Made by a program: the position numbers and the translations under genes. Shown here one piece after another: positions 3,103-59,478 of a DNA stretch of 64,000 nt (the stretch's first letter is position 1; every line of letters starts with the position of its first letter). The notes under the pieces were generated by a model. That model was given only the letters and a program-made list of their open reading frames with translations. It did no database searches and was not told the DNA's origin. This DNA comes from a virus. The stretch spans positions 32,079-96,078 of the IMG/VR virus record IMGVR_UViG_3300032242_001655; one strand, given 5' to 3'.

Positions 3103-3108
3103 GTAAGT

Positions 3109-3360: not shown

Positions 3361-3380
3361 GGGGCTACGGCCCCTTTCTT
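3361..3380 (+). terminator. Terminator of the tmRNA gene
   Basis: GGGGC-TACG-GCCCC hairpin with a stable UACG tetraloop, followed by TTTCTT. Confidence 0.75.
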
Positions 3381-3406
3381 ATCAGTTTTAAAAAGGATGA
3401 TTAAAA

Positions 3407-21093: not shown

Positions 21094-21396
21094 ATGGAAC
21101 AAGTTGACGTCAAAGAAATAGAAGAAATAGATATTGAGATTTTGAATCCAGGAAAATATAAAGTTGTGGTTCAAAACGATGATGTCACACCGATGGAGTT
21201 TGTTATTGCCATGCTGATACAGGTATTCAATCACTCCGAAGAACGTGCTAAAGATATAACACTACAAATTCACAACGATGGAGCAGGAGTCGCAGGCATA
21301 TTCAGTTATGAAGTAGCCGAGCAAAAGGGCATTGAGGGTACACTATTAGCCCGCCAACATGGTTGGCCCTTAGCAATTAAAATCGAGGAAGAATGA
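21094..21396 (+). CDS. clpS: ClpS adaptor protein
   Basis: 100 aa. KYKVVVQNDDVTPMEFVIAMLIQVFNHSEERAKDI then HNDGAGVAGIFSYEVAEQKG match ClpS, which binds N-degron substrates and delivers them to ClpA with ClpP. First gene of a four-gene operon; its stop overlaps the start of the ketoacyl synthase. With phage ClpX, Hsp20 and tmRNA it adds to a proteolysis set. Confidence 0.9.
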   Translation: MEQVDVKEIEEIDIEILNPGKYKVVVQNDDVTPMEFVIAMLIQVFNHSEERAKDITLQIHNDGAGVAGIFSYEVAEQKGIEGTLLARQHGWPLAIKIEEE

Positions 21397-22625
21397 AATT
21401 TGCAATTACCGGAATAGGAATCCTTAACGGATTAGGCTCCACGCTGGAAGAAAATTGGAGCAATCTATTAGCAGGTAAGTCTGCTATACAGGATATTGAG
21501 TGGCCCGAAGATAATCCTGACGTTCTTCCTTCTACCTGTAAAGGTATACAGATTAAAACTGGATTCCCTAGTCCCACTCCAGAATTTACACGAGACGAGT
21601 ACGATAATGAACACCGTCATTGGTCACGTTCTACCAAAATGACTATATATACTGGCACCCAAGCCTATAAGGATAGTGGCCTTACTTCTAAAAACGTGGG
21701 AGTATTTTTTACAACTACTGTTGGGCAAATGGAAGCCAACAACAAAATTATGAAGGCTATTGACAAAGGCCGTGAAAAATACAGCCCTAAACAAATATTG
21801 AATGGTAGTAATGCGTACGGTAGTGAACAGGTACAGAAATATTTAAAACTAGAAGGTCCTAGTGGATCAATACACACTGCCTGTGCCACAGGAATCTACC
21901 TACTTGATTACGGAATAAAGACACTGATGACAGATCCGGATCTAGATGCTGTAATGATCGGATGCAGTGACAGTTGCTTTCAACCATTTGTCTTTTATTA
22001 TTTTCAAAATCTTAATGCGCTGAGTCGCCAACCTGCGGAAGAGGCATGTAAACCATTTGATGTTAATAGATCCGGATTTGTGTTAGGTGAAGGATCTTGT
22101 GCTTACATTATAGAACCTCTAGAAAAAGCAGTTGCCCGAGGTGCATATATCTACGGACTAGTATTAGGTACAGGTATTTCTGGCTCAGGAGTATTTGACA
22201 CAGAACCCGATCCCACTGGTCATACACAAAGATTAGCAGTGAATAAGGCACTCCGTAATGCCCGTGTAGATCCAGAAGATATCGATTATATTAATGCTCA
22301 TGCTACAGGCACACCAGTTGGTGATGAGTTAGAATACAATCTCATGAATGAAATGTTCCATGGTAAAGTCATGGTAAGTAATAAAGGACAAATAGGACAT
22401 ACATTAGGAGTTTGTTCTGTGATAGAGTTAATCTATACTATAATGGCTCTTAAAGAGCAACGCACACCGCCTAATGTAAATTTAACAACACCAGTAGGTG
22501 CCGGAATGCAGTTGCCCACGACTGAAACCAAGATATACGCAAAGTATGCTCTAAAGAATAGTTTTGCGTTTGGAGGACGTTCAGCCTGTGCTGTATTAGC
22601 AAAATATGATGGAGAAACAAAATGA
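21393..22625 (+). CDS. Beta-ketoacyl-ACP synthase (FabF-like)
   Basis: 410 aa thiolase-fold KAS II. Active-site Cys in HTACATG (near residue 165), His in NAHATGTPVGD (near 305) and Lys/His in NKGQIGHTLG (near 330), the Cys-His-His triad of elongating condensing enzymes. Glycine-rich end SFAFGGRSACAVL also fits. Would condense malonyl-ACP with an acyl group. No ACP or acyltransferase is seen beside it. It is coupled to a heme oxygenase, so its role is uncertain: membrane lipid supply or a pigment-linked acyl chain. Confidence 0.85.
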   Translation: MKFAITGIGILNGLGSTLEENWSNLLAGKSAIQDIEWPEDNPDVLPSTCKGIQIKTGFPSPTPEFTRDEYDNEHRHWSRSTKMTIYTGTQAYKDSGLTSKNVGVFFTTTVGQMEANNKIMKAIDKGREKYSPKQILNGSNAYGSEQVQKYLKLEGPSGSIHTACATGIYLLDYGIKTLMTDPDLDAVMIGCSDSCFQPFVFYYFQNLNALSRQPAEEACKPFDVNRSGFVLGEGSCAYIIEPLEKAVARGAYIYGLVLGTGISGSGVFDTEPDPTGHTQRLAVNKALRNARVDPEDIDYINAHATGTPVGDELEYNLMNEMFHGKVMVSNKGQIGHTLGVCSVIELIYTIMALKEQRTPPNVNLTTPVGAGMQLPTTETKIYAKYALKNSFAFGGRSACAVLAKYDGETK

Positions 22626-38817: not shown

Positions 38818-39058
38818 AGTAGGGAACTTAAAACGCAAAAAGTGTGCCGAAAGGGTTTTGGATGCAGGCCGGAAGCCAGTATCTGGATAGTGTTGTAAAC
38901 ACTCGCATCGGTTGAAGCAACGGGTCAACAGACTGGCTGTTGTGGAGTGATCCGTGAGCGTTCCATGTTTCCTGGACAAGAGAGAGCGGGGGCTGTTGTC
39001 TCCGGGCGGGCAAGGATATCACTTTCGTGGACCAAAACTCTCATAAGTTCCCTACTTA
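38817..39058 (+). ncRNA. Candidate structured RNA closed by a 15-bp perfect inverted repeat
   Basis: TAAGTAGGGAACTTA (38817-38831) pairs perfectly with TAAGTTCCCTACTTA (39044-39058), framing about 210 bases without a convincing gene. Inside are AGTGTT-GTA-AACACT, CCAG-TAT-CTGG, CAACAG-ACTGG-CTGTTG and a GATGC/GCATC helix enclosing the first two. The base composition is richer in G and C than the neighbours. It lies between a terminator and the QueC-like gene end, with which it overlaps 3 bases. Transcribed strand unknown; no match to a known RNA class was recognised. Confidence 0.55.
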
Positions 39059-39682
39059 AAATGTATAGTTAATATCAAATTCGTAGCGTTCACGAGGTGA
39101 GGTTTGAGGATCAAGGTATCCGCATTTATCAAATGCCCATGCTCTTTCTTTGCAGTGCCAACATTCGTCACACACCTTATCATCCGGTGTTTCGCATGAA
39201 TATGCAATTTTCATTAGGTCAATAAGATCACAATCAATGGCTTCTTGTACTATATAGTCTTTGGTTAATTCTATCCATGGCTGAGCATATCTAGCCAATT
39301 TCATTGATTGCCGTCTTGGTCCTATTTCTATTTCTTTTGGATTTTTAGTATCGCCTAATACAAATACTTCTATATCATCATCGGAGGCTTCTCTCAATCC
39401 GCTTATTACCTGTAGGGTATGATGGACTTTATCTGTGCCTACTTTATTAATAGTATAACTGATTCCAAACTTGTCATTAATCCAATCCAATATATTCTGT
39501 GTACGAACTAGACTGTTGTTTGGACGATCCACTGTATATACTTTGAATTCATTGTTAGTTTTTAGTTCTTCTCTTAGAGCATGTACTAGATATATTAATA
39601 GGCCGCTATCTAAACCTCCGGAAACAAATAGTCCAATTTTCCTGTTATTTTGTAGTATTTTTTTGATTGGCTCTCTTATCAT
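39056..39682 (-). CDS. QueC-like ATP-pyrophosphatase
   Basis: 208 aa starting at 39682. LFVSGGLDSGLL (near residue 19) is the PP-loop that binds ATP. SCETPDDKVCDECWHCKERAWAF near the C-terminus is the Cys cluster of 7-cyano-7-deazaguanine synthase QueC (zinc site). QueC makes preQ0; phage copies can serve 7-deazaguanine DNA modification. No QueD, QueE, FolE or DpdA is seen in the window. The late box TTAAATA with 5-base spacing fixes the start. Confidence 0.65.
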   Translation of the reverse strand: MIREPIKKILQNNRKIGLFVSGGLDSGLLIYLVHALREELKTNNEFKVYTVDRPNNSLVRTQNILDWINDKFGISYTINKVGTDKVHHTLQVISGLREASDDDIEVFVLGDTKNPKEIEIGPRRQSMKLARYAQPWIELTKDYIVQEAIDCDLIDLMKIAYSCETPDDKVCDECWHCKERAWAFDKCGYLDPQTSPRERYEFDINYTF

Positions 39683-39687
39683 AAAAA

Positions 39688-39694
39688 TATTTAA
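39688..39694 (-). promoter_or_regulatory. Late-type box TTAAATA (minus), 5 bases before ATG
   Basis: Minus-strand TTAAATA, spacer TTTTT, ATG at 39682. Confidence 0.5.
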
Positions 39695-39702
39695 CCTTCT
39701 AG

Positions 39703-39731
39703 TTGACAGCACTGGTTTTTTCATGTATAAT
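39703..39731 (+). promoter_or_regulatory. Perfect sigma70 promoter with leaderless spacing
   Basis: TTGACA (39703-39708), 17 bases, TATAAT (39726-39731); lipoprotein ATG 6 bases on, at 39738. Confidence 0.8.
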
Positions 39732-39737
39732 AAAAAC

Positions 39738-39980
39738 ATGAAGAAATTAGTTGCTGTCATTTTTTTTGGACTGTTGGTCGGATGTTCCACTGTAACCAAT
39801 CAGCGGATACTGACTCCTTACGAAGTTAGTACCATACCAACCGATTGTCTTAATCAACGACAAATTATAAACTATTTAGAAAGCCAGGTGAAATTTGCAA
39901 ATGAAAACAACATCAAAGAAAACTTGGGAGTTGTCAAGTATAAACTTTGGGAAATTCGTACTTTGTGTAATGGCGGCTAG
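39738..39980 (+). CDS. Small lipoprotein, 80 aa
   Basis: MKKLVAVIFFGLLVGC: a lipoprotein signal with lipobox L-V-G-C (Cys16), then STVTNQRILTPYEV. Mature part contains two further Cys. Anchored in the outer or inner membrane of the host. The start is set by the promoter and a leaderless layout. The next gene overlaps its last 80 bases. Confidence 0.6.
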   Translation: MKKLVAVIFFGLLVGCSTVTNQRILTPYEVSTIPTDCLNQRQIINYLESQVKFANENNIKENLGVVKYKLWEIRTLCNGG

Positions 39981-41786: not shown

Positions 41787-42281
41787 ATGCGAATAGGAAT
41801 AATAGGACATAGAGGATTATTGGGGAGTGCCATTTCGGCAGAATTCTCTGAGGGTAATGAAGTAATTGGGATGAGTCGTAATACAGGATACGATCTTCAA
41901 ACCAATTACAATGATATTATAGATGTGTGTAAGGAATGTGACTTGGTATTCAATAACGCACATTCTTCTACACTACAGGCCAGTGTTATTAGAGACTTAT
42001 CAAACACCAAAATTAAATTAGTAACTTCCGGCAGTATAGCGGCTAACTATGGGTTTTCTGATTACTGTAAACAAAAGAAAATAATAGAAGAAACTTATCA
42101 CTTATATATTAGAAGATACCCAGAAAGATGTTTGCTATTAAAAATGGGTTACCTTGAAGGATTAGAGCCTGGTAAGGCCAGAAACTTTAAAACTATTCCA
42201 TTAACAACTATAACTTCAAGCATTAGACATTGGTTAGCCAATCCAAGAATAACAAAAATGGAATTTGAAAATGTTCTTTGA
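41787..42281 (+). CDS. Short NAD(P)-binding Rossmann protein
   Basis: 164 aa. GIIGHRGLLGSAISAEF is a GxxGxxG dinucleotide loop, as in dTDP-4-dehydrorhamnose reductase/SDR folds. The Tyr-x3-Lys position reads YGFSDYCKQKKI. It is half the usual SDR length, so the substrate part is reduced. First gene of the array transcript; overlaps the next by 11 bases. Confidence 0.6.
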   Translation: MRIGIIGHRGLLGSAISAEFSEGNEVIGMSRNTGYDLQTNYNDIIDVCKECDLVFNNAHSSTLQASVIRDLSNTKIKLVTSGSIAANYGFSDYCKQKKIIEETYHLYIRRYPERCLLLKMGYLEGLEPGKARNFKTIPLTTITSSIRHWLANPRITKMEFENVL

Positions 42282-43476
42282 CAACGACCAAGAAATAACC
42301 AAGCACGGATACTATCAGGTTAATGGTATAAAAACTTTTAGTAAATTCGAAGCATTTAAATTTGCTGGCGGCGATAAGGATAAAATTAAATTTATCTATA
42401 ACGAAGATGTAATGGATCAGCAAGATTGGACCAAAGAACCAGATGAAGATATATACGAATTGTACGCCGAACGTGCTCGACAACTAAGACACAAATATGA
42501 CTATCTTGTGTTATTATATAGCGGTGGTATAGATAGTCACACCGTATTGGAATCTTTTTTAAATAATAGAATTCACTTAGACGAAATATGCACTTTTACA
42601 AATGCTGAGGTAGAATCTAAAACAGGAAAGTTTAATCAGGAAGTATTTAATGCCGCAGTTCCTTTTGTTAATACATTGAATCTTAGTGAACTTAAAACTA
42701 AGTTTAGATTATTTGATATCAGTGATTTGATTATTAATCAATATCAAGATGAGTTTCATTTTGAAAATCATCACTTGTATAATCAAGGTCCTGGTAATAG
42801 TTGGAGTAGTGCAGTACGTTCTCATGTATTAAAATCTAAGATTCAAGATCATTTAAGATTAACAGAGCAAGGTAAAAGTGTTTGTTATATTTGGGGATTC
42901 GATAAGCCTACACTAACCTTTGAAAATAATCAATATTTTATTAGATTTGCCGATAATTCAATTGATCTAAATATGCGTCAATATATTAATAGAAAAACAC
43001 TAATAAGTAAGTTTGCTAATTTTTACGACGAGCCATTTTATATCTGTCGAGAATTTCCTAAGATATCGATCAAACAGGGACATTTACTTTTTAATTTAAT
43101 CAAAACTATAAAAATAATCGATCCTATATTAAAATCTCAAAATGAGATTCCTACTACAGGGCCATTTGTTGTTCATCATCGAGCAGAATATTTTAGATTT
43201 TTACCCAAGAAAGTAGTCGACAGAACTATATATCCAAAAGCAAATCTATTACAATTTGGTGATGATAAAACTAAAGGAAGCATTATACTTACTCCCAAAG
43301 ATGATTGGTTTAACAGATCTAACCATAATAATCAACATCGATGGTTTCAAAATTTAGAAAACCTAATAAAACAAAATCAAGGACTTTATAAATTTAAAAA
43401 CAACAAGGTAATAGGAATAAATTATATCCTCAGCAAACCATACTACATAGGTGAATTTGATGTATTTAAAAATTAA
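42271..43476 (+). CDS. N-type ATP-pyrophosphatase, family 1, copy A
   Basis: 401 aa from ATG 42271, chosen to match copy B (44324), which starts MFFYDT. LLYSGGIDSHTVLESFL (near residue 87) is the PP-loop of ATP-pyrophosphatases such as asparagine synthase and tRNA thiolation enzymes. CYIWGFDKPTL and DEPFYICREFPKISIKQGHLLFNL are shared with copy B. It lacks the glutaminase domain of asparagine synthase. Would activate a carboxylate or amide as the adenylate; substrate unknown. Confidence 0.75.
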   Translation: MFFDNDQEITKHGYYQVNGIKTFSKFEAFKFAGGDKDKIKFIYNEDVMDQQDWTKEPDEDIYELYAERARQLRHKYDYLVLLYSGGIDSHTVLESFLNNRIHLDEICTFTNAEVESKTGKFNQEVFNAAVPFVNTLNLSELKTKFRLFDISDLIINQYQDEFHFENHHLYNQGPGNSWSSAVRSHVLKSKIQDHLRLTEQGKSVCYIWGFDKPTLTFENNQYFIRFADNSIDLNMRQYINRKTLISKFANFYDEPFYICREFPKISIKQGHLLFNLIKTIKIIDPILKSQNEIPTTGPFVVHHRAEYFRFLPKKVVDRTIYPKANLLQFGDDKTKGSIILTPKDDWFNRSNHNNQHRWFQNLENLIKQNQGLYKFKNNKVIGINYILSKPYYIGEFDVFKN

Positions 43477-44320
43477 ATATTTTTTAGTCTTATTATTATT
43501 TCCTGTATACTGTTTTCCTGAAATAAACATTGTCGTACCATCTACTCCTGGAGGAGCATACGATCAATTGGCTAGAAAATTTAGCAAGTTTGTAACTAAT
43601 GAAACAGATATGCCAGTCGTTGTTATAAATGTTTCAGGTGCTGGCGGATTAATAGGTATAAGAAAAGTTGAGGCTGATTCTAAAAGCACATTCATGTTAT
43701 CAAGTTCTGCACTATACATTCTACTTAATGAAGAATCTATACCATTAGATCATTTTAAATATGTTTCGATTATTGGGGAAAGTCCTCTGTTCTTAGCCGT
43801 TTCAAAAAGCAGGGGACTAACTTGTGAAGATCTTAGAGATAGAACACAACATTTTTTTGTAGGGACTTCTGGAAAGGGAGGGGTTGCTGGACAACCATTA
43901 GAGATGATTAAAAAGAAATATTCAAATTTTACTGAGATTCCTTATAGGAGTGCATACGCATCAACAGTTGATATCATCTCGGGTCAAATTGATATAACAT
44001 TTATATCCGGGTTATATTCAAATCGTCCCGACTTTGAATTGTTGGCTAATACTTCTAATAGACCATTTAATAATATTCCTACCTTAAAAACTTGTATGGG
44101 GGTAAACGAACCTATATTAACTCAATTTATTCTTTCGGCTAATCAGAACACAAATGACGATCTTGTTAAAAAATTAAATACTTTAGCAATAAAATTTGTT
44201 TCCGATCCCGATACTGACAAGTATCTTAAAGAACAGGGAATTATGCCAAAGGCAAAATCTCTTGAATTAACTAACAAAGAAATTAAATTCGAATACGAAA
44301 AATGGAAATTAACAAGGTAA
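43460..44320 (+). CDS. TctC/Bug-type periplasmic binding protein, copy A
   Basis: 286 aa from ATG 43460. Signal peptide MYLKIKYFLVLLLFPVYC, then INIVVPSTPGGAYDQLARKF and INVSGAGGLIGIRKVEA: the P-x-x-P-G-G-x-x-D and GAGG loops of tripartite tricarboxylate (Bug) receptors. A later TEIPYRSAYASTVDIISGQIDITF also fits. Binds small carboxylates in the periplasm. No TctA/TctB transport genes are here. Paralogue of 45577. Confidence 0.85.
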   Translation: MYLKIKYFLVLLLFPVYCFPEINIVVPSTPGGAYDQLARKFSKFVTNETDMPVVVINVSGAGGLIGIRKVEADSKSTFMLSSSALYILLNEESIPLDHFKYVSIIGESPLFLAVSKSRGLTCEDLRDRTQHFFVGTSGKGGVAGQPLEMIKKKYSNFTEIPYRSAYASTVDIISGQIDITFISGLYSNRPDFELLANTSNRPFNNIPTLKTCMGVNEPILTQFILSANQNTNDDLVKKLNTLAIKFVSDPDTDKYLKEQGIMPKAKSLELTNKEIKFEYEKWKLTR

Positions 44321-44323
44321 TTT

Positions 44324-45580
44324 ATGTTTTTTTATGATACTCCCGAACTTACAAAATATGGATATTATCTTGTTAATGATACCATTAAAACATTTAGTAA
44401 ATTTGAAGCATATCAACTTGCAGGAAAAAATTGGAAGAATATAAGATTTATCTTTAATGATGACGAGTTTGAAAAATACGATTGGACAGTCGAGCCTGAA
44501 GAAGATATCTACGAATTATATAGGCAACGAGCACAACAACTAAGAGAAAAATATGATTATGTAGTGTTAATGTATAGCGGTGGGATAGATAGTCATACAA
44601 TATTAGAAACATTTTTGCAAAATAATATTAAATTAGATGAGATCTGTACTTTTTCTGTTTCCGATACTGAAGACAAATTAAAAAGTTTAAACCCGGAGGT
44701 ATTTAGAACAGCCCTTCCATTTATTGAAACTTTAAATTTAAAAAAAATAGGTACAGTTTTTAGAGATGTTGAAGTCGGAAAACTTATTTTAGATTGGTGG
44801 AACGATGATTTTCATGCTGAAAATTTCCAATATTACACAATTCAACAACAATGGTCTGGAGTGGTTAGATCTTATTATTTTAAATCTAAAATAAAAGAAC
44901 ATATGGCGTTAATTGAAAATGGAAAAACAGTATGTTATATATGGGGATCAGATAAACCTTCAATGTGTGTTACTCAAAATCATTACGCATTATACATACC
45001 AGACGGTGCTCTTGATTTAGGAAGTAAACAATACGTTAACAGATTACATTTTAATAAAAAATTTTATAATTTCTATGATGAACCTTTTTATATATGCAGA
45101 GAATTTCCTAAGATATCAATCAAACAATCACATTTATTAGTAAATCTAATGGAAACAATACCTAAAACAGATAGTCGCCTGCTCTTAAAAGGTCAATTAC
45201 CTACCTTTGGTCCATTTGTTAGCCACCATGTAGAAAATAATATTGTAAAATTTTTAGATAAAGCAACTATAGATGGGTGCATATACCCTAATGCTTTATT
45301 AAGTAGATTTAGGAATGACAAAATATATAACGCAAGTCTAATCATTTCTCCAAAAGATAATTGGTTTTTATCTTCAAATCATCCTAACCGATATAAATTT
45401 GAAGAGCAAATAACAAAAATAATTAAAGAGAACCAAAACTATTTTTATTATACAAATGCAAAAAATCACAGATTATTTAAGCAAGAGGAATACAAAGATA
45501 CAATACCTAAAAATGCGGGAGTGACATTTAGTAGATTATATTTTATTAGACCGGTTTCGAATTTAAATAACAACTTATGA
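44324..45580 (+). CDS. N-type ATP-pyrophosphatase, family 1, copy B
   Basis: 418 aa paralogue of 42271. LMYSGGIDSHTILETFL PP-loop, YYFKSKIKEHMAL, CYIWGSDKPSM, DEPFYICREFPKISIKQSHLLVNLMET and SPKDNWFLSSNHPN are conserved with copy A. Starts 4 bases after copy A of TctC. C-terminal extension of 15 residues. Confidence 0.75.
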   Translation: MFFYDTPELTKYGYYLVNDTIKTFSKFEAYQLAGKNWKNIRFIFNDDEFEKYDWTVEPEEDIYELYRQRAQQLREKYDYVVLMYSGGIDSHTILETFLQNNIKLDEICTFSVSDTEDKLKSLNPEVFRTALPFIETLNLKKIGTVFRDVEVGKLILDWWNDDFHAENFQYYTIQQQWSGVVRSYYFKSKIKEHMALIENGKTVCYIWGSDKPSMCVTQNHYALYIPDGALDLGSKQYVNRLHFNKKFYNFYDEPFYICREFPKISIKQSHLLVNLMETIPKTDSRLLLKGQLPTFGPFVSHHVENNIVKFLDKATIDGCIYPNALLSRFRNDKIYNASLIISPKDNWFLSSNHPNRYKFEEQITKIIKENQNYFYYTNAKNHRLFKQEEYKDTIPKNAGVTFSRLYFIRPVSNLNNNL

Positions 45581-46446
45581 AAAAAATTATTTCAATTATA
45601 CTATTATTAATAACATTCTCTGTATCAGCAGAAGAAATTAGTATTATTGTTCCATTTCCGCCTGGTGGAGCATATGACATTATGGCAAGAAAATTTGCGC
45701 AATTTATCACAGACGAAACACCTAATCATGCGATTGTTAATAACATTGTAGGGGCTGGCGGATATATCGGGCTGAAAAAATTAGAATCGAGCCCTCCTAA
45801 TACTGTAATATTAGCACAGAGTAGTTCATTCTATGGGGGGTTAATTGAACATCAAATTCCTCTTGAAAACTTTAAACTTGTTGCAGTATTGGCAGAAAGT
45901 CCTTACTTCCTTGTAGTATCTAAAAATAATGGATTAACCTGTGAAAAGTTAAAGAATACACAAAAATATTTTTTTGCGGGAACTGGTGGGAAAAATACCA
46001 GTACTGATGAAATAGTAAAATTTATTAAAGAAAAATATTCTAATTTTCAAGATGTACCTTATAAAGGTGTAATACAAACTTTAACTGATTTAATATCAGG
46101 GCAAATAGATTTAACATTCTTTTCAGGGCTATCTAATTCTCGACCGGAAATAATATTTTTAGCCAATACATCGTCTGTAGTGTTTGATGGTATCCCTACG
46201 TTAAAATCTTGTTTAGGAATAGAAAAAACAATAACAAATGAATTTATTTTAGTTGCAAATAATACCGCAGATATTTCTTTTTTGAAACAAATGAATCAAT
46301 TGGCTTACAAATTTGTCGAGGACTCTAAAACAAAAGAATATTTTAAAACCAATGGTATTAGTTCCAGAGTAGACTCGTTAGAAAAATCTGAAAAAATATT
46401 TAAATTTAATTTTTTACAAATACAAAATGGAACTAATCAAAGATAA
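45577..46446 (+). CDS. TctC/Bug-type periplasmic binding protein, copy B
   Basis: 289 aa. Signal peptide MKKIISIILLLITFSVSAEE; IIVPFPPGGAYDIMARKF and NNIVGAGGYIGLKKLES match the family more closely than copy A. ATGA overlap with the ATP-pyrophosphatase shows translational coupling of a cytoplasmic enzyme with a periplasmic receptor. Overlaps the next gene by 20 bases. Confidence 0.88.
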   Translation: MKKIISIILLLITFSVSAEEISIIVPFPPGGAYDIMARKFAQFITDETPNHAIVNNIVGAGGYIGLKKLESSPPNTVILAQSSSFYGGLIEHQIPLENFKLVAVLAESPYFLVVSKNNGLTCEKLKNTQKYFFAGTGGKNTSTDEIVKFIKEKYSNFQDVPYKGVIQTLTDLISGQIDLTFFSGLSNSRPEIIFLANTSSVVFDGIPTLKSCLGIEKTITNEFILVANNTADISFLKQMNQLAYKFVEDSKTKEYFKTNGISSRVDSLEKSEKIFKFNFLQIQNGTNQR

Positions 46447-47422
46447 TTATCTTCGAGGATTTGGGACTGGCGATACATGGCGAGTCGAAATCGATCCTCC
46501 AACCAGACCAGTAAAATCTTATTTTGAAGAAATGTTAATTTCTTCAGAATATATATACGCAAACAAAACTGGAAAATTATATTTGTTAGTTAGTGGAGGA
46601 TTAGATAGTGAATATGTTTTTAGAATTTTTAAATACCTTAAATTTGATTTCACTCCAGTAATTATTAGATACACAGGAAAATATCATTACCATGACTATA
46701 ATTTGGCTGATACACAATATGCTTTTATGCTCTGCAATAGTATGAATGTTACTCCTTTAGTTATAGAATTTAATATTGATAAATGGATAGAAAGCGGTGA
46801 CATTTTTAAAAAGATGCACTCTATTCGGACAGGATTTCCAGTCACGGCTACCTATTTGCATGTTATTGAATCGTTAGACGGATTCACAGTATTAGGTAAT
46901 GATCCACCGTTTGTTCGATATAATGAAGAAACAGGAGTATGGCAACTTGAAGAAGAAGAATCAGCCCATGCACAATTAAGAAATTATAAACTAAACAATA
47001 TGCAGGGATGCCCTTATACATTATCATATACAGCAGAAATGATGCTATCATTTTTGTTAGAAAAAAGAATAGTTGATTTGGTAAACAATAAGTTGCCAGG
47101 AAAAACAGGCACCAATTCAAGTAAATCCTATGTTTATAATAACGGTTCAGGATTTAATATAGATCATTATGATCCCGATTCAACTTTTAAATTTTTTAAA
47201 AATAATAAGATGATAGAATTTCTTCAACAACCTTCTAAATTGTTAACCCTTCCTCGCATCAAATTTAATGGATGGGAATTAATTCGACGTCTTCCATTTT
47301 ATCGCAATCATCCAGAAAAATTAAAAAATTTCAATTTAGATGCTAATCATCTCTATAGAGGATGTTACTCAGAAAACTACTTTGAATTAGTGTTGCGACT
47401 ATCAATCAATCAACATATATAA
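46427..47422 (+). CDS. N-type ATP-pyrophosphatase, family 2, copy 1
   Basis: 331 aa. LLVSGGLDSEYVFRIF (residues about 54-70) is the PP-loop; MELIKDNYLRGFGTG, DPPTRPVKSYFEE and PGKTGTNSSKSYVYN are shared with copy 5 (51333). A 30-residue insertion before the C-terminus (FKFFKNNKMIEFLQQ) distinguishes it. No partner domain. Substrate unknown. Confidence 0.7.
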   Translation: MELIKDNYLRGFGTGDTWRVEIDPPTRPVKSYFEEMLISSEYIYANKTGKLYLLVSGGLDSEYVFRIFKYLKFDFTPVIIRYTGKYHYHDYNLADTQYAFMLCNSMNVTPLVIEFNIDKWIESGDIFKKMHSIRTGFPVTATYLHVIESLDGFTVLGNDPPFVRYNEETGVWQLEEEESAHAQLRNYKLNNMQGCPYTLSYTAEMMLSFLLEKRIVDLVNNKLPGKTGTNSSKSYVYNNGSGFNIDHYDPDSTFKFFKNNKMIEFLQQPSKLLTLPRIKFNGWELIRRLPFYRNHPEKLKNFNLDANHLYRGCYSENYFELVLRLSINQHI

Positions 47423-47428
47423 TATTAA

Positions 47429-48313
47429 ATGATTCCAAGAATTAAAAATAATTATATGAGGCCAAACGGAGTCCTTTCAGATTTCAAGATAGAACTTGAT
47501 CCGCTACCTACAAAATTTGACAATTACTTTATTGAGACATGTCGGGCCGCTGAAGAGATATATAATCTAAAACAAGGTAAACTTCATTTATTATATAGTG
47601 GCGGTCTCGATAGTGAGTACGCATTAAGTGTGTTTTTACATTTAGGAATGGATATAACTCCTGTTATTATCAAATTAAATCCTGGATATAACGATCACGA
47701 TCTCGAGTACGCATTTAAATTCTGTGACTCTAAAAATATTAAACCTCTAATAATTGATATAGACTTTCCGCATTTTGTTAAATCTGGAAAGTTTTATGAT
47801 ATAATGAAAATTACAGAAGGTAGTGTTTATACTATTAGTACAACTGCATATGCCCTTGGACAAATTAACGGGTCTGTGCTAGTTGCGGCAAACGAACCGT
47901 ACATAGGAAAACATCCAGATACAGGAGAATGGTATTTTGTATTAGAGAGATGGGCCTGGGGATTAGAAAGGTATTGTAATATAAATGGTATAGACGGTAC
48001 TGTATCTTTTAATGCGTATACACCAGAAATGGTTTCATCATGGTTAATGGATCCAAGGATGGCAGAATTAGCAAATAATTTACATCCGGGCAAAAGAGAC
48101 TCTCAATCAAGTAAGCATTACGTCTATAACAGAGATAGTGGGTTTAATTTAGAAATTAGGCCTAAATTCCACGGATGGGAAAAAATTATTCTTGATACAA
48201 TATACCAACATGAAGATTTTGAAAAATGTCATAATGAAATTTATGCAAAATTTAAAGGAAGGTGGAGTATCAAATATTTTGATTTAATCAAAAATATTAT
48301 TGACAAATCTTAA
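47429..48313 (+). CDS. N-type ATP-pyrophosphatase, family 2, copy 2
   Basis: 294 aa. MIPRIKNNYMRPNG, LLYSGGLDSEYALSVFLHLGMDITPVI, YAFKFCDSKNIKP and PGKRDSQSSKHYVYN. Closest to copy 4 (50422). The Asp/Ser of the PP-loop is intact, so it should be active. Confidence 0.7.
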   Translation: MIPRIKNNYMRPNGVLSDFKIELDPLPTKFDNYFIETCRAAEEIYNLKQGKLHLLYSGGLDSEYALSVFLHLGMDITPVIIKLNPGYNDHDLEYAFKFCDSKNIKPLIIDIDFPHFVKSGKFYDIMKITEGSVYTISTTAYALGQINGSVLVAANEPYIGKHPDTGEWYFVLERWAWGLERYCNINGIDGTVSFNAYTPEMVSSWLMDPRMAELANNLHPGKRDSQSSKHYVYNRDSGFNLEIRPKFHGWEKIILDTIYQHEDFEKCHNEIYAKFKGRWSIKYFDLIKNIIDKS

Positions 48314-48327
48314 TTTTAGTATATACT
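48300..48327 (+). promoter_or_regulatory. Sigma70-like promoter within the array
   Basis: TTGACA (48300-48305), 16 bases, TATACT (48322-48327), overlapping the end of copy 2. Serves the gene at 48358. Confidence 0.5.
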
Positions 48328-48357
48328 ATATAAAGTAACACTTAAATCGGACAAACT

Positions 48358-48723
48358 ATGACAATATATTGGGGATATCATCTAATGCTCGACTGCGGGA
48401 ATTGTGACTTAGTGAAGATGACAGATAAGGATAACATTAAAAATTTTGTTCAAGAGTTGGTAATTGCTATCGATATGGTTGCAATAGGAGACCCGTGGAT
48501 TGAACGTACCGCGATAGGAATACCCGATAAGGAAGGTTTTAGTCTATACCAACTTATTGTTACTAGTAATATTTCTGCACACTTTGTTGATATTCCTAAG
48601 CAAATTTACCTAGATGTTTTTAGTTGTAAAGAATTTAACAGTGATGTTGTAATCGAGATTGTTAAAAAGTATTTTACCCCTTCTAAGATAAATCAAAATT
48701 TTGTAATTAGGGATGCCTCTTAA
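48358..48723 (+). CDS. S-adenosylmethionine decarboxylase (SpeD-like) candidate, 121 aa
   Basis: 121 aa. YWGYHLMLDCGNCD at the start, then NFVQELVIAIDMVAIGDPW and TSNISAHFVDIPKQIYLDVFSCKEFN. The size, the leading 'xGxHLxLDxxxCD' and the late 'S-N-I-S-A-H-F...DVFSC' correspond to small prokaryotic AdoMet decarboxylases (SpeD: H-L-x-x-D, ESHISIHTxPE, DxFTC), but the usual E-S-H self-cleavage motif reads T-S-N-I-S-A-H. So activity is uncertain; could be a degenerate relative. Lies between array copies 2 and 3. Confidence 0.5.
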   Translation: MTIYWGYHLMLDCGNCDLVKMTDKDNIKNFVQELVIAIDMVAIGDPWIERTAIGIPDKEGFSLYQLIVTSNISAHFVDIPKQIYLDVFSCKEFNSDVVIEIVKKYFTPSKINQNFVIRDAS

Positions 48724-48725
48724 AT

Positions 48726-49547
48726 ATGAAAACAAAGAATGATTGGTTTACATCTAATATTGCAGAACGGTTTACTGATCCTAGTTCTCCGTTTGATGTT
48801 AATATAAACTTATATCCATTTAAAAAAATTGATTTTAAATCTGCTGTTAAGTTAACAATTAAGGAGATCGCCAATTCTTATTCAAATTTATATGTGGCGC
48901 TAAGTGGAGGACTAGATAGTGAATTTGTTTTAAGAGCATTTAATCAATTAGATATTTCAATAATTCCTATTATTGTATGTTATGGAAATGAACTTGAAAA
49001 CAAGTATGCTTACAAAGTGTGTAAAGAACTTTCAATTAATCCAATCACTATTTCTGTGTCAGATAATGAATATCTTGAATGCTTTACTGAAAGAATCTAT
49101 AAAAAATTTAATGGGGTTGGTATCCACACTACCCAGGTATTGTTTGCGGCAGATTATGTTGAAAAAAACAATGGAGTGTTGATCACCGGCAATCATTTAA
49201 TAGGAGACGGTAACGAAATAATTTCAGAAGAAAATTATGCATCGTCGAATGAGTGGGATTTTTATGTAGAGTATACACATCCTTCTATAGTTCATATTGA
49301 TCTTTTATTATATACTTTAGAAATAGCACATGCATCATTGCCAACATCAAACGGTAATACATGGAAAAATTATAAAAGCGAATTATATAACATTAAACAT
49401 AGAGAAAAGATAAAACCAACTTATTCAAACGATATAATTTTTAAACTTCAAGAACTACATCTTAAAAGACCTGCATTTAGATACAGAACTGAAAAAACTT
49501 GGTCAAGAAGTGAGTTTAATGATATTTTCCAAAAGGTTACCAAATAA
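48726..49547 (+). CDS. N-type ATP-pyrophosphatase, family 2, copy 3
   Basis: 273 aa, the most divergent. VALSGGLDSEFVLRAF PP-loop (near residue 60), YGNELENKYAYKVCKELSINPI, LITGNHLIGDGNEIISEEN. C-terminal NSSK motif is replaced by SNGNTWKNYKSE. Precedes the Rieske gene directly. Confidence 0.65.
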   Translation: MKTKNDWFTSNIAERFTDPSSPFDVNINLYPFKKIDFKSAVKLTIKEIANSYSNLYVALSGGLDSEFVLRAFNQLDISIIPIIVCYGNELENKYAYKVCKELSINPITISVSDNEYLECFTERIYKKFNGVGIHTTQVLFAADYVEKNNGVLITGNHLIGDGNEIISEENYASSNEWDFYVEYTHPSIVHIDLLLYTLEIAHASLPTSNGNTWKNYKSELYNIKHREKIKPTYSNDIIFKLQELHLKRPAFRYRTEKTWSRSEFNDIFQKVTK

Positions 49548-50438
49548 ATGTTCAAAAATCCACCAAATATATATGCACATGTGTCTGCATTAAAAAATGG
49601 ACACTTTGTAACAGAAGATGAGATAATTCTTAAAAAAGATGAAAAATATTCTATAAAAAGTAGAGAATGTCCTCATCGTGGATATACTATGCAAGAGCCC
49701 GGGGATGTTGTAAAAAACGTAGTATGCAAACTACATGGATTCGCATGGGACGATGAAGGGAAACCTTTTGAAAATAAAAATGATCTTTGTAGAAATCATT
49801 TTTATAGATTACATCATCATGGTAATTTAGAAATAGGTAAATCTGGATTATTATTTCAAAATTTTAAAGAACAAGAGCAGTCTGAATGGGTTCAAGTATT
49901 GAATAAGATGACCGATCTTGAATTTGTTAAAACCTTAACAGGTGAAAGTTTTGGGAGTCGATTTTGGATGATGGAACAACTAACAGATATATTGCATTTT
50001 AGACAAAACGGAATACACCCAAGACAGACTTTAGAAACTCCACTAGAGTTATTAGAACAAAGGTTAGAAGAAGGATGCTCTATACAAAAAAACACTAATG
50101 TGAGCGGTGTTGTTGGCTATTGGGTTTTTGTATATCCGGGTTTTGGAATAGAGTTTGAGCCTGGAAAGTTATTAATCACTAGAATAATTCCAAAAAATAA
50201 AAAAGAAGAATTCGGGTACATCTGGGAAATGCAATTTTATTACGCACCATGGGTAGATAAAAATGAACAAGAAGAATGGGAAAAATGTAAAGATGTTTAC
50301 ATAGAAGATGTTCTGGCCGTTGAAAAAATAAAACGTCCATACTTTCCTTTAAAGAAAATGGTCAATAAATATGAAGAGCAAATGCACCATTGGGGTAAAT
50401 GGTATTTAAACAATAAAATTAATGATACCAAGGATTAA
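49548..50438 (+). CDS. Rieske [2Fe-2S] oxygenase-like protein
   Basis: 296 aa. Two Rieske ligand pairs, CPHRG (Cys41, His43) and CKLHG (Cys60, His63), with a FAWD stretch after. The remainder has the size of a catalytic (SRPBCC) domain, but no clear D-x2-H-x4-H iron site was seen: candidate His are sparse. It may be a shortened ring-hydroxylating oxygenase or an electron-transfer protein. Starts one base after copy 3 and overlaps copy 4 by 17. Confidence 0.65.
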   Translation: MFKNPPNIYAHVSALKNGHFVTEDEIILKKDEKYSIKSRECPHRGYTMQEPGDVVKNVVCKLHGFAWDDEGKPFENKNDLCRNHFYRLHHHGNLEIGKSGLLFQNFKEQEQSEWVQVLNKMTDLEFVKTLTGESFGSRFWMMEQLTDILHFRQNGIHPRQTLETPLELLEQRLEEGCSIQKNTNVSGVVGYWVFVYPGFGIEFEPGKLLITRIIPKNKKEEFGYIWEMQFYYAPWVDKNEQEEWEKCKDVYIEDVLAVEKIKRPYFPLKKMVNKYEEQMHHWGKWYLNNKINDTKD

Positions 50439-51312
50439 AAACAATTTTATCCGACCAATTGGATCTGGGGAAACATGGACTTTAAACATAGATCCCCTTC
50501 CTAAAAAGTTTGACAATTATTTTGTCGAGTCATGTCGTGCGGCTGAAGAAATATACGATCTTAAAGAAGGTCCATTACACATAATGTATAGCGGCGGCAT
50601 TGATAGTGAATATGCGTTGAATGTATTTTTACATTTAGGAATTGATATTACCCCTGTTATTGTTAGATTAAATCCTAACTTTAATGATTTTGATATCGAA
50701 TATGCTTTTAAATTCTGTCAGAAATATAATTTAACACCGCATGTTATCGATATAGATTTTAAAGAATTTATAACTTCTGGCAAGTATGCACAAACCAAAA
50801 ACATCATAAAATCTTCAGTTATACCAAGAGTAAGTACTTGCTATGCACTTGGGCTAGTGGACGGTAGTATTGTGTGTGGTGAAGGAGATCCGCATATTAG
50901 TAAAGATGAAAATACAGATGTATGGTATTTTGATGCTGTCGAGCATGATTATACATTAGATAATTATATGAATCATAAAAAAATAGACGGCACTTCTTTC
51001 TTCTGTGGATATACTCCTGAGATGGTTTCTGCATTTTTAATAGACCCGCAAATGAAAGATTTAGCAGATAATAAAGTTCCAGGAAAATTAGGTAGCCATT
51101 CTAGCAAATATATAATGTATAATCGGCATAGTAATTTTGAACTAGTCAAACGACCAAAATATCACGGATATGAAAAAATTCTGCAAGATGAAATAGCAAA
51201 ACAATTAAATCTTGCATTAGAAACAGACGAACCGTATAAATTTAAAGATTTTGAATATAACGGTCATTTTCAAATAGAATATTACAAACTAATAAAAGAT
51301 TTGATAGAATAA
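50422..51312 (+). CDS. N-type ATP-pyrophosphatase, family 2, copy 4
   Basis: 296 aa. MIPRIKNNFIRPIGSGETW, IMYSGGIDSEYALNVFLHLGIDITPVI, PGKLGSHSSKYIMYN. Sister of copy 2. Overlaps the Rieske gene, which suggests a shared pathway. Confidence 0.7.
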   Translation: MIPRIKNNFIRPIGSGETWTLNIDPLPKKFDNYFVESCRAAEEIYDLKEGPLHIMYSGGIDSEYALNVFLHLGIDITPVIVRLNPNFNDFDIEYAFKFCQKYNLTPHVIDIDFKEFITSGKYAQTKNIIKSSVIPRVSTCYALGLVDGSIVCGEGDPHISKDENTDVWYFDAVEHDYTLDNYMNHKKIDGTSFFCGYTPEMVSAFLIDPQMKDLADNKVPGKLGSHSSKYIMYNRHSNFELVKRPKYHGYEKILQDEIAKQLNLALETDEPYKFKDFEYNGHFQIEYYKLIKDLIE

Positions 51313-51332
51313 ATTTACAGACAGATTATTGT

Positions 51333-52214
51333 ATGGAACTAATACACAATAACTATCTTCGAGGATCTGGGCATGGGGCTAACTGGCAGGTAGCAGTAGA
51401 TCCTCCAACACGACCTGTTAAAAGTTATTATGAAGAAGTGTGTATTGCGGCAGAAATGGTATGGGCACAAAAACTAGGAACTATGTATGTTAGCCTCAGT
51501 GGCGGATTAGACAGTGAATTTGTACTAGCAGTATTGTTATCGTTAAAGATGAATGCTGTACCTGTTATCATGCGTACACAGTACAATCATCCCGAAACTG
51601 CCTATGCTTTTAAGTTTTGTGAAAAAAATAATTTAACTCCTGTAGTGTTTGATTTAGACTATGATAATTTTGTTAAATCTGGTAAAGTATTAGAATATTG
51701 CAATTTGATGAAATGCTCTGTACCGTGGCATGCTTCTAATGCTTGGGTAATTCAACAATTAGATGGTACCGTACTAACAGGCAATGATCCTCCCCATATG
51801 AAAAAGAAAGAAGATGGATTATGGTATCTTGACGAAGAAGAACATATCCACTCTCAGTTAAGAGGATTTAGGAAAAATAACATTCACGGTACTCCTTACT
51901 TGCTAAGTTATACTCCAGAAACTATGTACGCATTTTTAACACATCCAACAATGGTAACATTAGCCAATGATAGGCTTCCTGGAAAGACTGGGACTAACTC
52001 TAGTAAAATACGAGTGTTTAATACCAACAAAGGAAAGTTCACTCTAGAACAACGAATTAAAAAAAGCGGATACGAATTAATAGAAAACAGTGATATAAAA
52101 AATCATCCCGATATCCAGACTGTATGGAGTTGGAATCACTGGCGTGGATCTTCTGATCATCAGTATCACGAACTAATTAAAACGCTGTCTGCTGGTAAAA
52201 CATCTATTCAATAA
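51333..52214 (+). CDS. N-type ATP-pyrophosphatase, family 2, copy 5
   Basis: 293 aa. MELIHNNYLRGSGHG, DPPTRPVKSYYEEVCIAAEMV, SLSGGLDSEFVLAVLL PP-loop, PGKTGTNSSKIRVFN. Sister of copy 1; its stop shares a base with the next start. Confidence 0.7.
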   Translation: MELIHNNYLRGSGHGANWQVAVDPPTRPVKSYYEEVCIAAEMVWAQKLGTMYVSLSGGLDSEFVLAVLLSLKMNAVPVIMRTQYNHPETAYAFKFCEKNNLTPVVFDLDYDNFVKSGKVLEYCNLMKCSVPWHASNAWVIQQLDGTVLTGNDPPHMKKKEDGLWYLDEEEHIHSQLRGFRKNNIHGTPYLLSYTPETMYAFLTHPTMVTLANDRLPGKTGTNSSKIRVFNTNKGKFTLEQRIKKSGYELIENSDIKNHPDIQTVWSWNHWRGSSDHQYHELIKTLSAGKTSIQ

Positions 52215-52756
52215 TGGAAGCAATAACATGGGTTCCTGGAACAGATCCAGAATTTGATCAACTATTCGAAGTCTTGCGGCTACAACGCTTTAACGATAAA
52301 TCCCACAGGTTGTGGAAGAACTACGGACCTGATGCATTTGAATCGTGTGTAGCCTTAACTATTTGTTTTGATGATAACAACCAACCAGAAGTATGCTCAA
52401 GTATTAGTTCAAGAGATTGTTGGCCAAAGAATGTTTATCGCATACACAACAGAGTTTGGAAAACATTTAACAAGAAAGAATACTTACGCACAGTAAGTCC
52501 TAGTATGGGTGTATCAGCACAGAGTCAAATAGATTGGTTGCGTGATAACACACTGTCAGAATTATACTTTATTAGCCGACAGACTAATAACTGGAATGAT
52601 TGGATGATAGAACACTTTGGTAAAAACTTTGGAATCAAGTTTAAAACAGATAAGTACACTTATCTAACCTGTCCTAATGAGTGTGATGAAACTTGTTGGC
52701 AGACAATTATATACAACGGCAACGAACAACTATTAGCAGATTGGAAACGTAGATGA
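52214..52756 (+). CDS. Uncharacterised protein, 180 aa
   Basis: Soluble. EAITWVPGTDPEFDQLFEVLRLQRFND and AQSQIDWLRDNTLSELYFISRQTNNWNDWMIEHFGKNFGIKF suggest a GNAT-like acetyltransferase-type fold, but the acetyl-CoA loop is not clear. Last cytoplasmic gene of the array; overlaps the desaturase by 4 bases. Confidence 0.4.
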   Translation: MEAITWVPGTDPEFDQLFEVLRLQRFNDKSHRLWKNYGPDAFESCVALTICFDDNNQPEVCSSISSRDCWPKNVYRIHNRVWKTFNKKEYLRTVSPSMGVSAQSQIDWLRDNTLSELYFISRQTNNWNDWMIEHFGKNFGIKFKTDKYTYLTCPNECDETCWQTIIYNGNEQLLADWKRR

Positions 52757-53541
52757 AAAACTTTATCAAGACTACATTAGCATTACCTCAATTATGGGCG
52801 GTTATTCTCCCAATGCAGATTTTAGGGCTATATACTATCTATAATCTGATCTCTGGAAACGCACCCTGGTGGTGGTGGATTACCTCTATTATAGGCTACG
52901 TCTGTTTTACCATGTTAGGAATCTCAGCAGGATACCATAGATTGTTTAGCCACAAAGGATTTAAGGTTAATAAAATAGTAAAAAGAATATTGTTGTATTT
53001 TGGTATTCTAGGAGGGCAAGGTAGCCCTATTATGTGGATTGGTGTACATAGAGGATATCATCATAGGTATGCAGATACTCCCAAAGATCTACACAGCCCT
53101 AAAGATGGCCTATGGCATAGTTATATGGGATGGATGTTTAAGTACCCAAAAATTAGTATTCGATCTGTTATTGATTTAACTCGAGATCCAGATATGTTAT
53201 TTGCTCACAAATACTATGTTCCTATCATTTACATAACACATATTATTGTTGCTATGATTAGTATAGATCTGTGGATGTATCTGTTGATGCTTCCTATGTT
53301 TATAACACTACACGGATTCCTAACACAAACCTCTCTTACACATTTGCGTAAATTGGGATATAGAAATTATAATGTCAAAGATAATAGTGTTAACGTTCCT
53401 TGGCTATTTCCTTTTATATTAGGAGAAGCATGGCACAACAATCATCACGGTGACGGACGTAATCCTAACTACGGTGGTAGACATTGGTGGGAACTAGATC
53501 CCACCTTCTGGCTTATACAGGCTATACGAACTGATAGTTAG
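52753..53541 (+). CDS. Fatty acid desaturase, second copy
   Basis: 262 aa. Histidine boxes HRLFSH, HRGYHH and EAWHNNHH, with hydrophobic helices before and between. Delta-9-like acyl desaturase of the membrane. Differs clearly from the minus-strand copy at 26381. Coupled to the array, so its substrate may be linked to it. Confidence 0.85.
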   Translation: MKNFIKTTLALPQLWAVILPMQILGLYTIYNLISGNAPWWWWITSIIGYVCFTMLGISAGYHRLFSHKGFKVNKIVKRILLYFGILGGQGSPIMWIGVHRGYHHRYADTPKDLHSPKDGLWHSYMGWMFKYPKISIRSVIDLTRDPDMLFAHKYYVPIIYITHIIVAMISIDLWMYLLMLPMFITLHGFLTQTSLTHLRKLGYRNYNVKDNSVNVPWLFPFILGEAWHNNHHGDGRNPNYGGRHWWELDPTFWLIQAIRTDS

Positions 53542-58042: not shown

Positions 58043-58774
58043 ATGGTTGGTATAAAAAACTATGATTGGTCTACGTTAGATAGAAGTCTCATTAGAGAAA
58101 TGATAACTGCTTCGGCATCAAATATTGTAAGTTGTCCACTTACTCCTCACTCTTTCACTAAAAAAATACGAGATACTTTTAGGTACTTTGAAGTACCTGT
58201 TAAGGTCATTATGACCAAAAACAAAGAAGTAAAAAAGGATGCTGTATGGGTTGGCGGACTGTACGACAGTATTAAAGATAAGAAGAATAATAAATTCATT
58301 ACTATAGGTCTAAACTACAATCCTAAACAAAAACAAGTTAAACTAAGTAATCGTGGGTTTAACGGATTGGCTATAAATGTTGCCGATACACTACTACATG
58401 AAATTATTCACACACGACAATATCGTCGTAGAAACTTCAAAGATATTCCAGGATACGAAAGTACCGCAGAATTAGGCAAACAACGCAGAGATCAAGTCTA
58501 CTACGGTCATGATGACGAGATAGATGCGTATGCGTTTAATATTGCCTGTTACCTAAATGATCGTTTCAAGGGAGATAAGAAACAAATCGTCCAGTATCTG
58601 AACAGCGATCTCAGAGACCGCCGATTAAAGAAGAATGCCTATAGAACGTATTTGGCCACTTTTGATCACGATCACAATCACAGAGTTATTAAAAAACTCA
58701 AAAAGAAAGTGATATACTATTTGCCATATACCGAAATAGGAAAACCGTATAAGACAGCAGATTGGTTAAAATGA
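58043..58774 (+). CDS. Zincin-like HExxH protein, 243 aa
   Basis: HEIIH at residues 119-123 followed by TRQYRRRNFKDIPGY, a pattern it shares with the 141-aa gene at 4420 (HVKQFARGQIKDIPGR). Third metal ligand probably Asp/Glu in HDDEIDAYAFN. Basic C-terminus. Paired with the next zincin by ATGA overlap. Substrate unknown. Confidence 0.6.
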   Translation: MVGIKNYDWSTLDRSLIREMITASASNIVSCPLTPHSFTKKIRDTFRYFEVPVKVIMTKNKEVKKDAVWVGGLYDSIKDKKNNKFITIGLNYNPKQKQVKLSNRGFNGLAINVADTLLHEIIHTRQYRRRNFKDIPGYESTAELGKQRRDQVYYGHDDEIDAYAFNIACYLNDRFKGDKKQIVQYLNSDLRDRRLKKNAYRTYLATFDHDHNHRVIKKLKKKVIYYLPYTEIGKPYKTADWLK

Positions 58775-59478
58775 AAAGAAAAATAAAAAAATTTAATTGC
58801 TCTCCTAAATTAAACAAGCCGGTAATTGTACCAACTAGAAATGATGTGCTTCCAATTATGGAAGAACTTCGCAAAGACATAGTGAACCAACTTATTCCCA
58901 TTGATGATTTTATTGAACATCTGGGGGTGTTTATCGGCCAGAGATTTAATATCACAGTCAAACACGTTTCAAGTCCACAAGTTGACGAAAATGATTTGGG
59001 CTTCAGCAGTTTCTATGACGGCGGGTTAGATGAAAATAACGAAGTTCCAATCGAAATTTACCTTGTGACCAATCCGGTTAATGAAGTTATGATTATGGAT
59101 ACAGAAACATTTGATCGTATGATTCGAAATCTTGCTGACAATTTAGCACATGAAATGATTCACATGTACCAATATCGTACTAGAGATTTTTGGGAACCAG
59201 GCCCAATTTATGTGCCAGATGATTGTACAGAAGAAGAAGAAAATTTAATTTATCTAAGTGATCCAGATGAGATCGGTGCTTATGCTCACAACATTGCCTG
59301 CGAACTATTGGAGCACGGTGATGTAGATGTTGTTAAAGAAAAACTCAAAGAAGTCAAAAAGATCACAGTTAAAGACAGTGTGAACCTTTGGGCTTATGTA
59401 CAGACATTTCAGGAGTATCCGAACCATCCTGTGATGAAAAAATTATTAAAGAAAGTTTACCAGAATCTATCAAAATAA
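58771..59478 (+). CDS. Zincin-like HExxH protein, 235 aa
   Basis: HEMIH at residues 127-131, MYQYRTRDF after, and DPDEIGAYAHNIACELL near residue 168, where the third ligand lies. ATG at 58771 overlaps the upstream stop; a TTG 9 bases earlier is less likely. Sister of the previous protein. Confidence 0.6.
   Translation: MKRKIKKFNCSPKLNKPVIVPTRNDVLPIMEELRKDIVNQLIPIDDFIEHLGVFIGQRFNITVKHVSSPQVDENDLGFSSFYDGGLDENNEVPIEIYLVTNPVNEVMIMDTETFDRMIRNLADNLAHEMIHMYQYRTRDFWEPGPIYVPDDCTEEEENLIYLSDPDEIGAYAHNIACELLEHGDVDVVKEKLKEVKKITVKDSVNLWAYVQTFQEYPNHPVMKKLLKKVYQNLSK

Follow-up and report, generated by a model that had tools for sequence, protein, structure and literature searches.

Two related families of N-type PP-loop ATP pyrophosphatases arrayed in a large uncultivated phage: candidate amide-forming ligases

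Why would a phage carry seven PP-loop genes in a single operon? The question is raised by the window analyzed here, a 64,000-nt stretch (bases 32079–96078) of the 96,078-base IMG/VR virus record IMGVR_UViG_3300032242_001655; all positions below are those of the window. An initial annotation, made from the letters alone, had described an array of seven N-type ATP-pyrophosphatase paralogues in two families, and had suggested an undescribed modification or small-molecule pathway. We conclude that these families, here called A and B, form a pair of related and so far undescribed branches within the N-type PP-loop ATP pyrophosphatases, found in large uncultivated tailed phages. As to their role, we give an even chance to the reading that both are ATP-dependent, carboxylate-activating, amide-forming ligases, acting in a phage pathway that would lead to an oxidized, desaturated acyl amide or aminolipid-like molecule.

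All seven open reading frames (ORFs) were recovered where they had been annotated, on the plus strand, and all-against-all BLAST of the seven proteins upheld the division into two A and five B copies. The A copies (42265..43476, starting at TTG 42265 or ATG 42271, and 44324..45580) are 51% identical over 382 aa. Four B copies (46427..47422, encoding 331 aa; 47429..48313; 50422..51312; 51333..52214) share 31–51% identity over their length, with E-values of 1e-48 to 1e-109. The remaining one (48726..49547) is distant from the others, with 28–35% identity over parts and E-values of 1e-9 to 1e-12. Given these identities and E-values, the relatedness within B reflects homology rather than chance motifs. 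The SGG[IL]DS loop is intact in 7/7 copies, as had been claimed (YSGGIDS in both A copies, SGGIDS at 50422 and SGGLDS in the other B copies). A second motif attributed to the end of family B, PGK-x-[GD]-x-x-SSK, held up in part. It is present in four of the five copies (PGKTGTNSSK at 46427 and 51333, PGKRDSQSSK at 47429, PGKLGSHSSK at 50422) and missing at 48726, and it is not C-terminal, lying two thirds along the protein at about residues 215–225 of ∼293. In alignments of relatives, S-x-G-x-D-S is invariant in 59/59 B sequences and the S, G and D are invariant in 57/57 A sequences; for B, the invariant residues are S56, G58, D60 and S61, with K243 kept in 58/59 and R241 in 54/59. Compared as profiles, A and B can be aligned across 190 columns (hhalign 95%, E 2.7e-8), and after the loop they have a further motif in common, G-x-D-[KP]-P. 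Families A and B therefore form one clan.

How widespread and how old are these genes? A degenerate-pattern scan of viral contigs, which come from metagenomes and are in most cases incomplete, brought up 467 relatives for A and 209 for B, and the best 80 were kept for each family. The 110 locus groups (loci are cited below by L numbers) hold 332 A/B genes, duplicate loci still included, and 54 groups have at least two. Locus L159 also has seven. Among 35 large contigs (7.3 Mb in total, selected for A or B content and not for the position of partner genes), a 524-kb contig carries at least eight A/B genes and several others carry five to seven. A tblastn search of named phages (INPHARED) with five A/B proteins gave no match, and literature searches found no description of such PP-loop arrays; the passages of PMC11480375 and PMC9992855 consulted make no mention of such arrays or of the gene module described below. 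One scan of 84,980 bacterial and archaeal genomes with A yielded three Bacteriovoracales contigs and nothing more. In each, one A copy lies among genes that look chromosomal, and family B is absent from the same three genomes. This order is a possible cellular source or recipient of family A. In each of them (L177, L178 and L179) the A gene lies near a gene that, by eye, resembles S-adenosylhomocysteinase.

Phylogenetic trees place each window copy with genes of other phages. The A copy at 42271 groups with L022 (81% identity), L021 and L024, and that at 44324 with L019. Among B copies, 46427 is sister to L020; 48726 groups with L022 and L021; 50422 pairs with L022 (66% identity), with 47429 beside that pair; and 51333 groups with L021, L100 and the L007/L118/L124/L131 group. 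Nonsynonymous divergence (dN) is 0.06–0.19 while synonymous divergence (dS) ranges from 0.8 to saturated, giving dN/dS of ∼0.05–0.1 where dS is measurable. As judged from the sequences, the window paralogues are old, predate the divergence of these phages and have been separately maintained, because they have counterparts elsewhere and are under strong purifying selection. Recent tandem duplication in this phage was rejected on the same groupings. Thus the annotated expansion within one phage operon needs qualification: seven copies do occupy one operon, yet the paralogues are older than the split between the phages, and clusters of this kind are seen again in dozens of large phage contigs.

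Do the proteins belong to a known family? Comparison by hidden Markov models and by structure recovered a PP-loop fold and no known family at full length, whether in Pfam, NCBIfam, PHROGs or PDB, and 0/7 window proteins reach the curated cut-off of any Pfam or NCBIfam model. The best Pfam Asn_synthase score against B is E 0.058. NCBIfam models for TilS, NAD synthetase and argininosuccinate synthetase give 11–17 bits, against cut-offs of 64–479. The B profile (59 sequences) matches PDB entries in the loop region only (NAD synthetase at 1.4e-6, TtuA, Cap9 and nitrile synthetase), and the A profile gives no convincing PDB match. Large phages often carry NAD synthetase-like counter-defence genes, and since B finds its best PDB sequence matches in NAD synthetases, the two families could resynthesize or neutralize a nucleotide consumed by host defence. 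We regard this as very unlikely: the matches end at the PP-loop, PADLOC returned weak QueC scores, one very weak methyltransferase score and nothing else, and the many divergent paralogues and metabolic neighbours fit poorly.

QueC invites another comparison. Several B copies score weakly with the QueC model (at most 18.2 bits, cut-off 22), and the best PHROGs hit of the window PP-loop proteins is a partial QueC-like match in the loop region (2.9e-5). A genuine QueC-like gene lies nearby at 39056..39799 on the minus strand; its product has an intact loop, a C-terminal cysteine cluster, a match to phrog_1550 and a QueC score of 26 bits, which passes the cut-off. It had been listed as an eighth copy. 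QueC-like it is, but it lies on the opposite strand and falls in neither A nor B. These features could suggest that A and B act as modification enzymes on phage DNA or nucleotides, or that they produce a deazaguanine-type base in the manner of QueC or DndC. Family B does resemble QueC and the phrog_1550 phage proteins in its PP-loop and weak profile scores, yet the matches end at the loop and B lacks the zinc-type cysteine cluster seen in the 39056 protein. No gene of the PTPS/QueD family was found in the 96-kb record, and no transglycosylase or DNA-modification genes were noticed among the neighbours. A role of this kind is highly improbable, and the 'modification' put forward as one option, if taken to mean that of DNA or tRNA, found no support.

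AlphaFold models of B (51333) and A (44324) had mean predicted local distance difference test scores (pLDDT) of 96.4 and 89.7, respectively, and both place the SGGxDS loop between a strand and a helix, as in the N-type PP-loop superfamily. By fold E-value, the best matches of the B model were TtuA, carbapenam synthetase and LarE; the longest were β-lactam, carbapenam and asparagine synthetases (TMq 0.40–0.53, with 0.53 for β-lactam and 0.48 for asparagine synthetase), all at large root-mean-square deviation (rmsd). For the A model, the loop domain alone matched solved structures, with LarE and TtuA on top by E-value. In a viral structure library, full-length relatives of A (TMq 0.65–0.81) were 'uncharacterized protein' entries of uncultured phages, and a few proteins named asparagine synthase matched partly.

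These matches point in two directions. If A and B were sulfur-transfer enzymes of the TtuA, ThiI or LarE type, they would thiolate tRNA or a small molecule; LarE and TtuA do share the PP-loop core and give the best fold E-values, and an IscU-like gene lies ∼2–3 kb upstream of B in six loci (L009, L011, L012, L015, L016 and L116). That gene is confined to one phage lineage, however, and the neighbours of A and B are acyl and oxygenase genes. Moreover, unlike LarE and TtuA, A and B conserve no set of cysteines that could serve sulfur chemistry. Neither a cysteine pair nor a zinc ribbon is conserved in the alignments (one cysteine column at 86% in B, C96, and one at 53% in A), which argues against two-cysteine sulfur transfer or thiolation. 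We consider sulfur transfer quite unlikely.

The second direction is amide formation. The C-terminal domain of AsnB and the β-lactam and carbapenam synthetases resemble A and B in their N-type PP-loop, in giving the longest fold alignments with the B model and in their likely carboxylate adenylation. They differ in that A and B have no glutaminase-like N-terminal domain (the N-terminus of B extends ∼50 residues ahead of the loop) and that the C-terminal part of B is distinct and contains PGK..SSK and R-x-K. We infer that R241 and K243 of B correspond to the catalytic lysine of AsnB; the hhalign alignment of B with E. coli AsnB (92 columns, 24% probability) is too short to place them against it, and AsnB was dropped as a direct template for active-site mapping.

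What surrounds these genes? In the entire record, every A/B copy sits in the array, which is contained in a run of 14 genes (41787–53541) of one direction with intergenic gaps of −26 to +44 bp. Each A gene is followed by a gene for a TctC-type periplasmic solute-binding receptor of the same cluster (cluster 22). The first (43451..44320; Pfam TctC E 5e-10) overlaps the A gene, and the second (45577..46446) also has a weak match to TAXI-type receptors (NCBIfam TIGR02122 E 2.8e-5, below cut-off). Between B copies lie an S-adenosylmethionine (AdoMet) decarboxylase-like gene (48358..48723) and a Rieske gene (49548..50438). After the last B copy come a conserved gene of unknown family, X180 (52214..52756), and a fatty-acid desaturase gene (52753..53541). 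The run opens with a short, peripheral ORF resembling short-chain dehydrogenase/reductase-type epimerases (41787..42281; Pfam Epimerase E 0.0021, below cut-off; 17-bp overlap with the next gene).

Neighbour clustering, Pfam and locus maps of related phages revealed two recurrent modules. Family B is accompanied by Rieske proteins, a fatty-acid desaturase or fatty-acid hydroxylase, X180 or GNAT-like proteins, and several 2-oxoglutarate oxygenase look-alikes, of which one cluster was confirmed (Pfam Asp_Arg_Hydrox) and the others were recognized by eye. Family A is accompanied by TctC receptors, DUF2061 and radical SAM/SPASM genes. In the 35 large contigs, 13/15 Rieske genes lie within 1.5 kb of B (2.6% of bases are that near), 24/38 TctC genes within 1.5 kb of A (2.9%) and 19/47 desaturase genes within 3 kb of B (4.3%). 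Three of five ketosynthase genes are near B. For epimerases, a common and unrelated family taken as a control, 1/56 lies within 3 kb of A or B, where 7.6% of bases are that near. Hence the interleaving of the array with receptors and a Rieske protein, noted initially, is present but not incidental: TctC goes with A, and Rieske with B. Two further arrangements were seen around A. In the L033–L060 group (many contigs, e.g. L052), glycosyltransferase, SpeD, peroxiredoxin, porin/outer-membrane protein, A, DUF2061 and radical SAM/SPASM genes follow in fixed order. At L018 (3796–5451), a tryptophan-halogenase family gene comes right after A and two TctC-like receptors, and the same cluster is near A in L028 and L096.

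Might the locus instead be a loose island, in which unrelated auxiliary genes, PP-loop genes among them, happen to accumulate and no single pathway is served? Gene order is variable, many further auxiliary genes are nearby, and the GC content of PP-loop genes is below that of other locus genes in 97/106 loci (mean −3.7 points). Acquisition or composition may account for the low GC, which is consistent with island-like acquisition. On the other side, the A–TctC, B–Rieske and B–desaturase pairings recur in divergent phages while the control family is not enriched, and the order B–X180–desaturase is retained. We judge a loose island unlikely. All copies preserve the catalytic loop, none of the known families matches on its own, and the genes lie in conserved modules. 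The idea of an undescribed small-molecule pathway fits these data, since neither outcome named beforehand as contradicting it, one known family or loss of catalytic residues in most copies, was observed.

What do the partners suggest about chemistry? The compact window Rieske protein (Pfam Rieske E 1e-7) has cluster ligands C41, H43, C60 and H63 and mononuclear-site residues D147, H150 and H157. Both sites, the [2Fe-2S] ligands (C-x-H...C-x2-H) and D-x2-H-x6-H, are kept in 28/28 Rieske proteins, and their profile matches carnitine monooxygenase (E 1.8e-22) and SxtT-type oxygenases. With both metal sites kept and a match to carnitine monooxygenase, these proteins are, by sequence, real non-heme iron oxygenases and not ferredoxins. 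They match CntA over most of its length, and differ from CntA and SxtT-type enzymes in size (∼270–300 versus 334–391 aa). The desaturase of the array is a predicted membrane diiron enzyme (Pfam FA_desaturase E 1.6e-14; three histidine boxes read by eye), with acyl-CoA desaturases as nearest solved relatives (E 7e-17). A second desaturase gene lies away from the array, at 26381–27091 on the minus strand. Lipid desaturases have been described in phages, as cited in PMC11480375. X180 lies downstream of B or beside AcpS, usually adjoins the desaturase, and has 37 invariant residues among 12 members. X176/GNAT3 is weakly GNAT (best E 0.0006, 9/23 members); treating it and X180 as one family was rejected (hhalign 18%). 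The AdoMet decarboxylase-like protein is of the SpeD type (Pfam AdoMet_dc E 2.8e-15; TIGR03330 E 7.9e-7, below cut-off). Phages are known to carry SpeD homologues, some of which are ornithine or arginine decarboxylases (PMC9992855), and the window protein may be one of these.

In some phages the B module also brings genes for acyl chains. L007, L008, L118, L124 and L131 combine it with AcpS, FabZ, a carrier protein and a ketosynthase; a second small carrier protein is present in L007, L008, L118 and L131 and was not seen in L124. In L008, L118, L124 and L131, the genes for Rieske, B, FabZ, acyl carrier protein (ACP) and ketosynthase follow one another on one strand, opposed to those for desaturase, X180 and AcpS, and L007 has the same arrangement without Rieske. 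The window has a β-ketoacyl-ACP synthase gene 20 kb from the array (21393..22625, plus strand; fabF E 4.7e-78), a possible supplier of acyl chains. The synthase gene comes after a ClpS gene and has a heme oxygenase gene directly behind it, the two spanning 21393–23158.

From these associations we infer the reaction type, acyl substrate, step order and purpose of a putative amide-forming pathway. The SGGxDS loop of A and B would bind ATP, and the enzymes would adenylate a substrate carboxylate with release of pyrophosphate; an amine would then attack the adenylate and form an amide, in the manner of asparagine and β-lactam synthetases. Acyl chains would be supplied by ACP or coenzyme A, in some phages by the module's own AcpS, acyl carrier proteins, dehydratase and ketosynthase. 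Family B would operate alongside the Rieske oxygenase, the desaturase and a GNAT-like or X180 protein; desaturase, Rieske and other oxygenases, often of 2-oxoglutarate type, would tailor the chains. For A, paired with TctC, the receptor perhaps imports the carboxylate or binds the product. Paralogues of one phage may serve different substrates or steps, and the SpeD homologue may provide the amine. The most likely product in the infected cell would be an oxidized, desaturated acyl amide or aminolipid-like molecule. In bacterial ornithine lipid synthesis, acyl-ACP donates the chain for N-acylation of an amino acid, and hydroxylation follows (PMC3972451, PMC11631085). The phage modules resemble such aminolipid pathways in having ACP, GNAT-like, Asp/Arg-hydroxylase and fatty-acid hydroxylase families, whereas the known pathway includes no step for PP-loop ligases. 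No OlsB-type N-acyltransferase or OlsA-type O-acyltransferase occurs among the neighbours tested, so the resemblance is one of analogy and not of membership.

Several observations weigh against this amide-forming scheme. Near-duplicate contigs inflate the neighbour counts and make the p-values too small; collapsing three pairs leaves ∼10/11 Rieske genes beside B. Fatty-acid-synthase-type genes accompany only ∼5 loci, and no ACP is recognized in the window, although it has the ketosynthase. A and B are linked neither to a glutaminase domain nor to a dedicated supply of ammonia. X180 is not recognizable as an acyltransferase and has no Pfam or PDB match. AdoMet decarboxylase is near A or B in 3/12 cases and was rejected as a core partner; the link of 48358 to the module is weak beyond close relatives of the window. 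Finally, the fold matches of B are low-scoring with high rmsd, and LarE and TtuA score equally high by E-value; the type of ligase is therefore not fixed.

The auxiliary genes of phages typically supplement a single step in the metabolism of the host. A conserved module with ligase, oxygenase and acyl-carrier genes, found in many large phages, whose family A (the one scanned) is almost absent from bacterial genomes, suggests instead a biosynthesis run by the phage. Tentatively, and with the chances clearly against it, such a dedicated cluster with its own carriers, oxygenases and PP-loop ligases might specify an acyl amide or aminolipid unknown from any cell, serving in the course of infection for remodelling of the host envelope, as a chemical signal or as a weapon. 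More immediately, two widespread 'uncharacterized' phage protein families acquire names, and a concrete gene set results.

The rest of the window has other features of note. A transketolase-like enzyme is encoded by two adjacent genes, for the thiamine pyrophosphate-binding and pyrimidine-binding halves, among sugar-nucleotide genes (28052–29145, minus strand). A tmRNA gene at 3081–3409 (ARAGORN, asterisk-marked) specifies the tag ANDEQFALAA. The window has 23 tRNA genes, spanning 32496–53652, with 21 of them within 32.5–37.7 kb. At 58043–59478 lie two tandem paralogues (30% identity by their L007 counterparts) with no Pfam match, conserved in L007 and L008.

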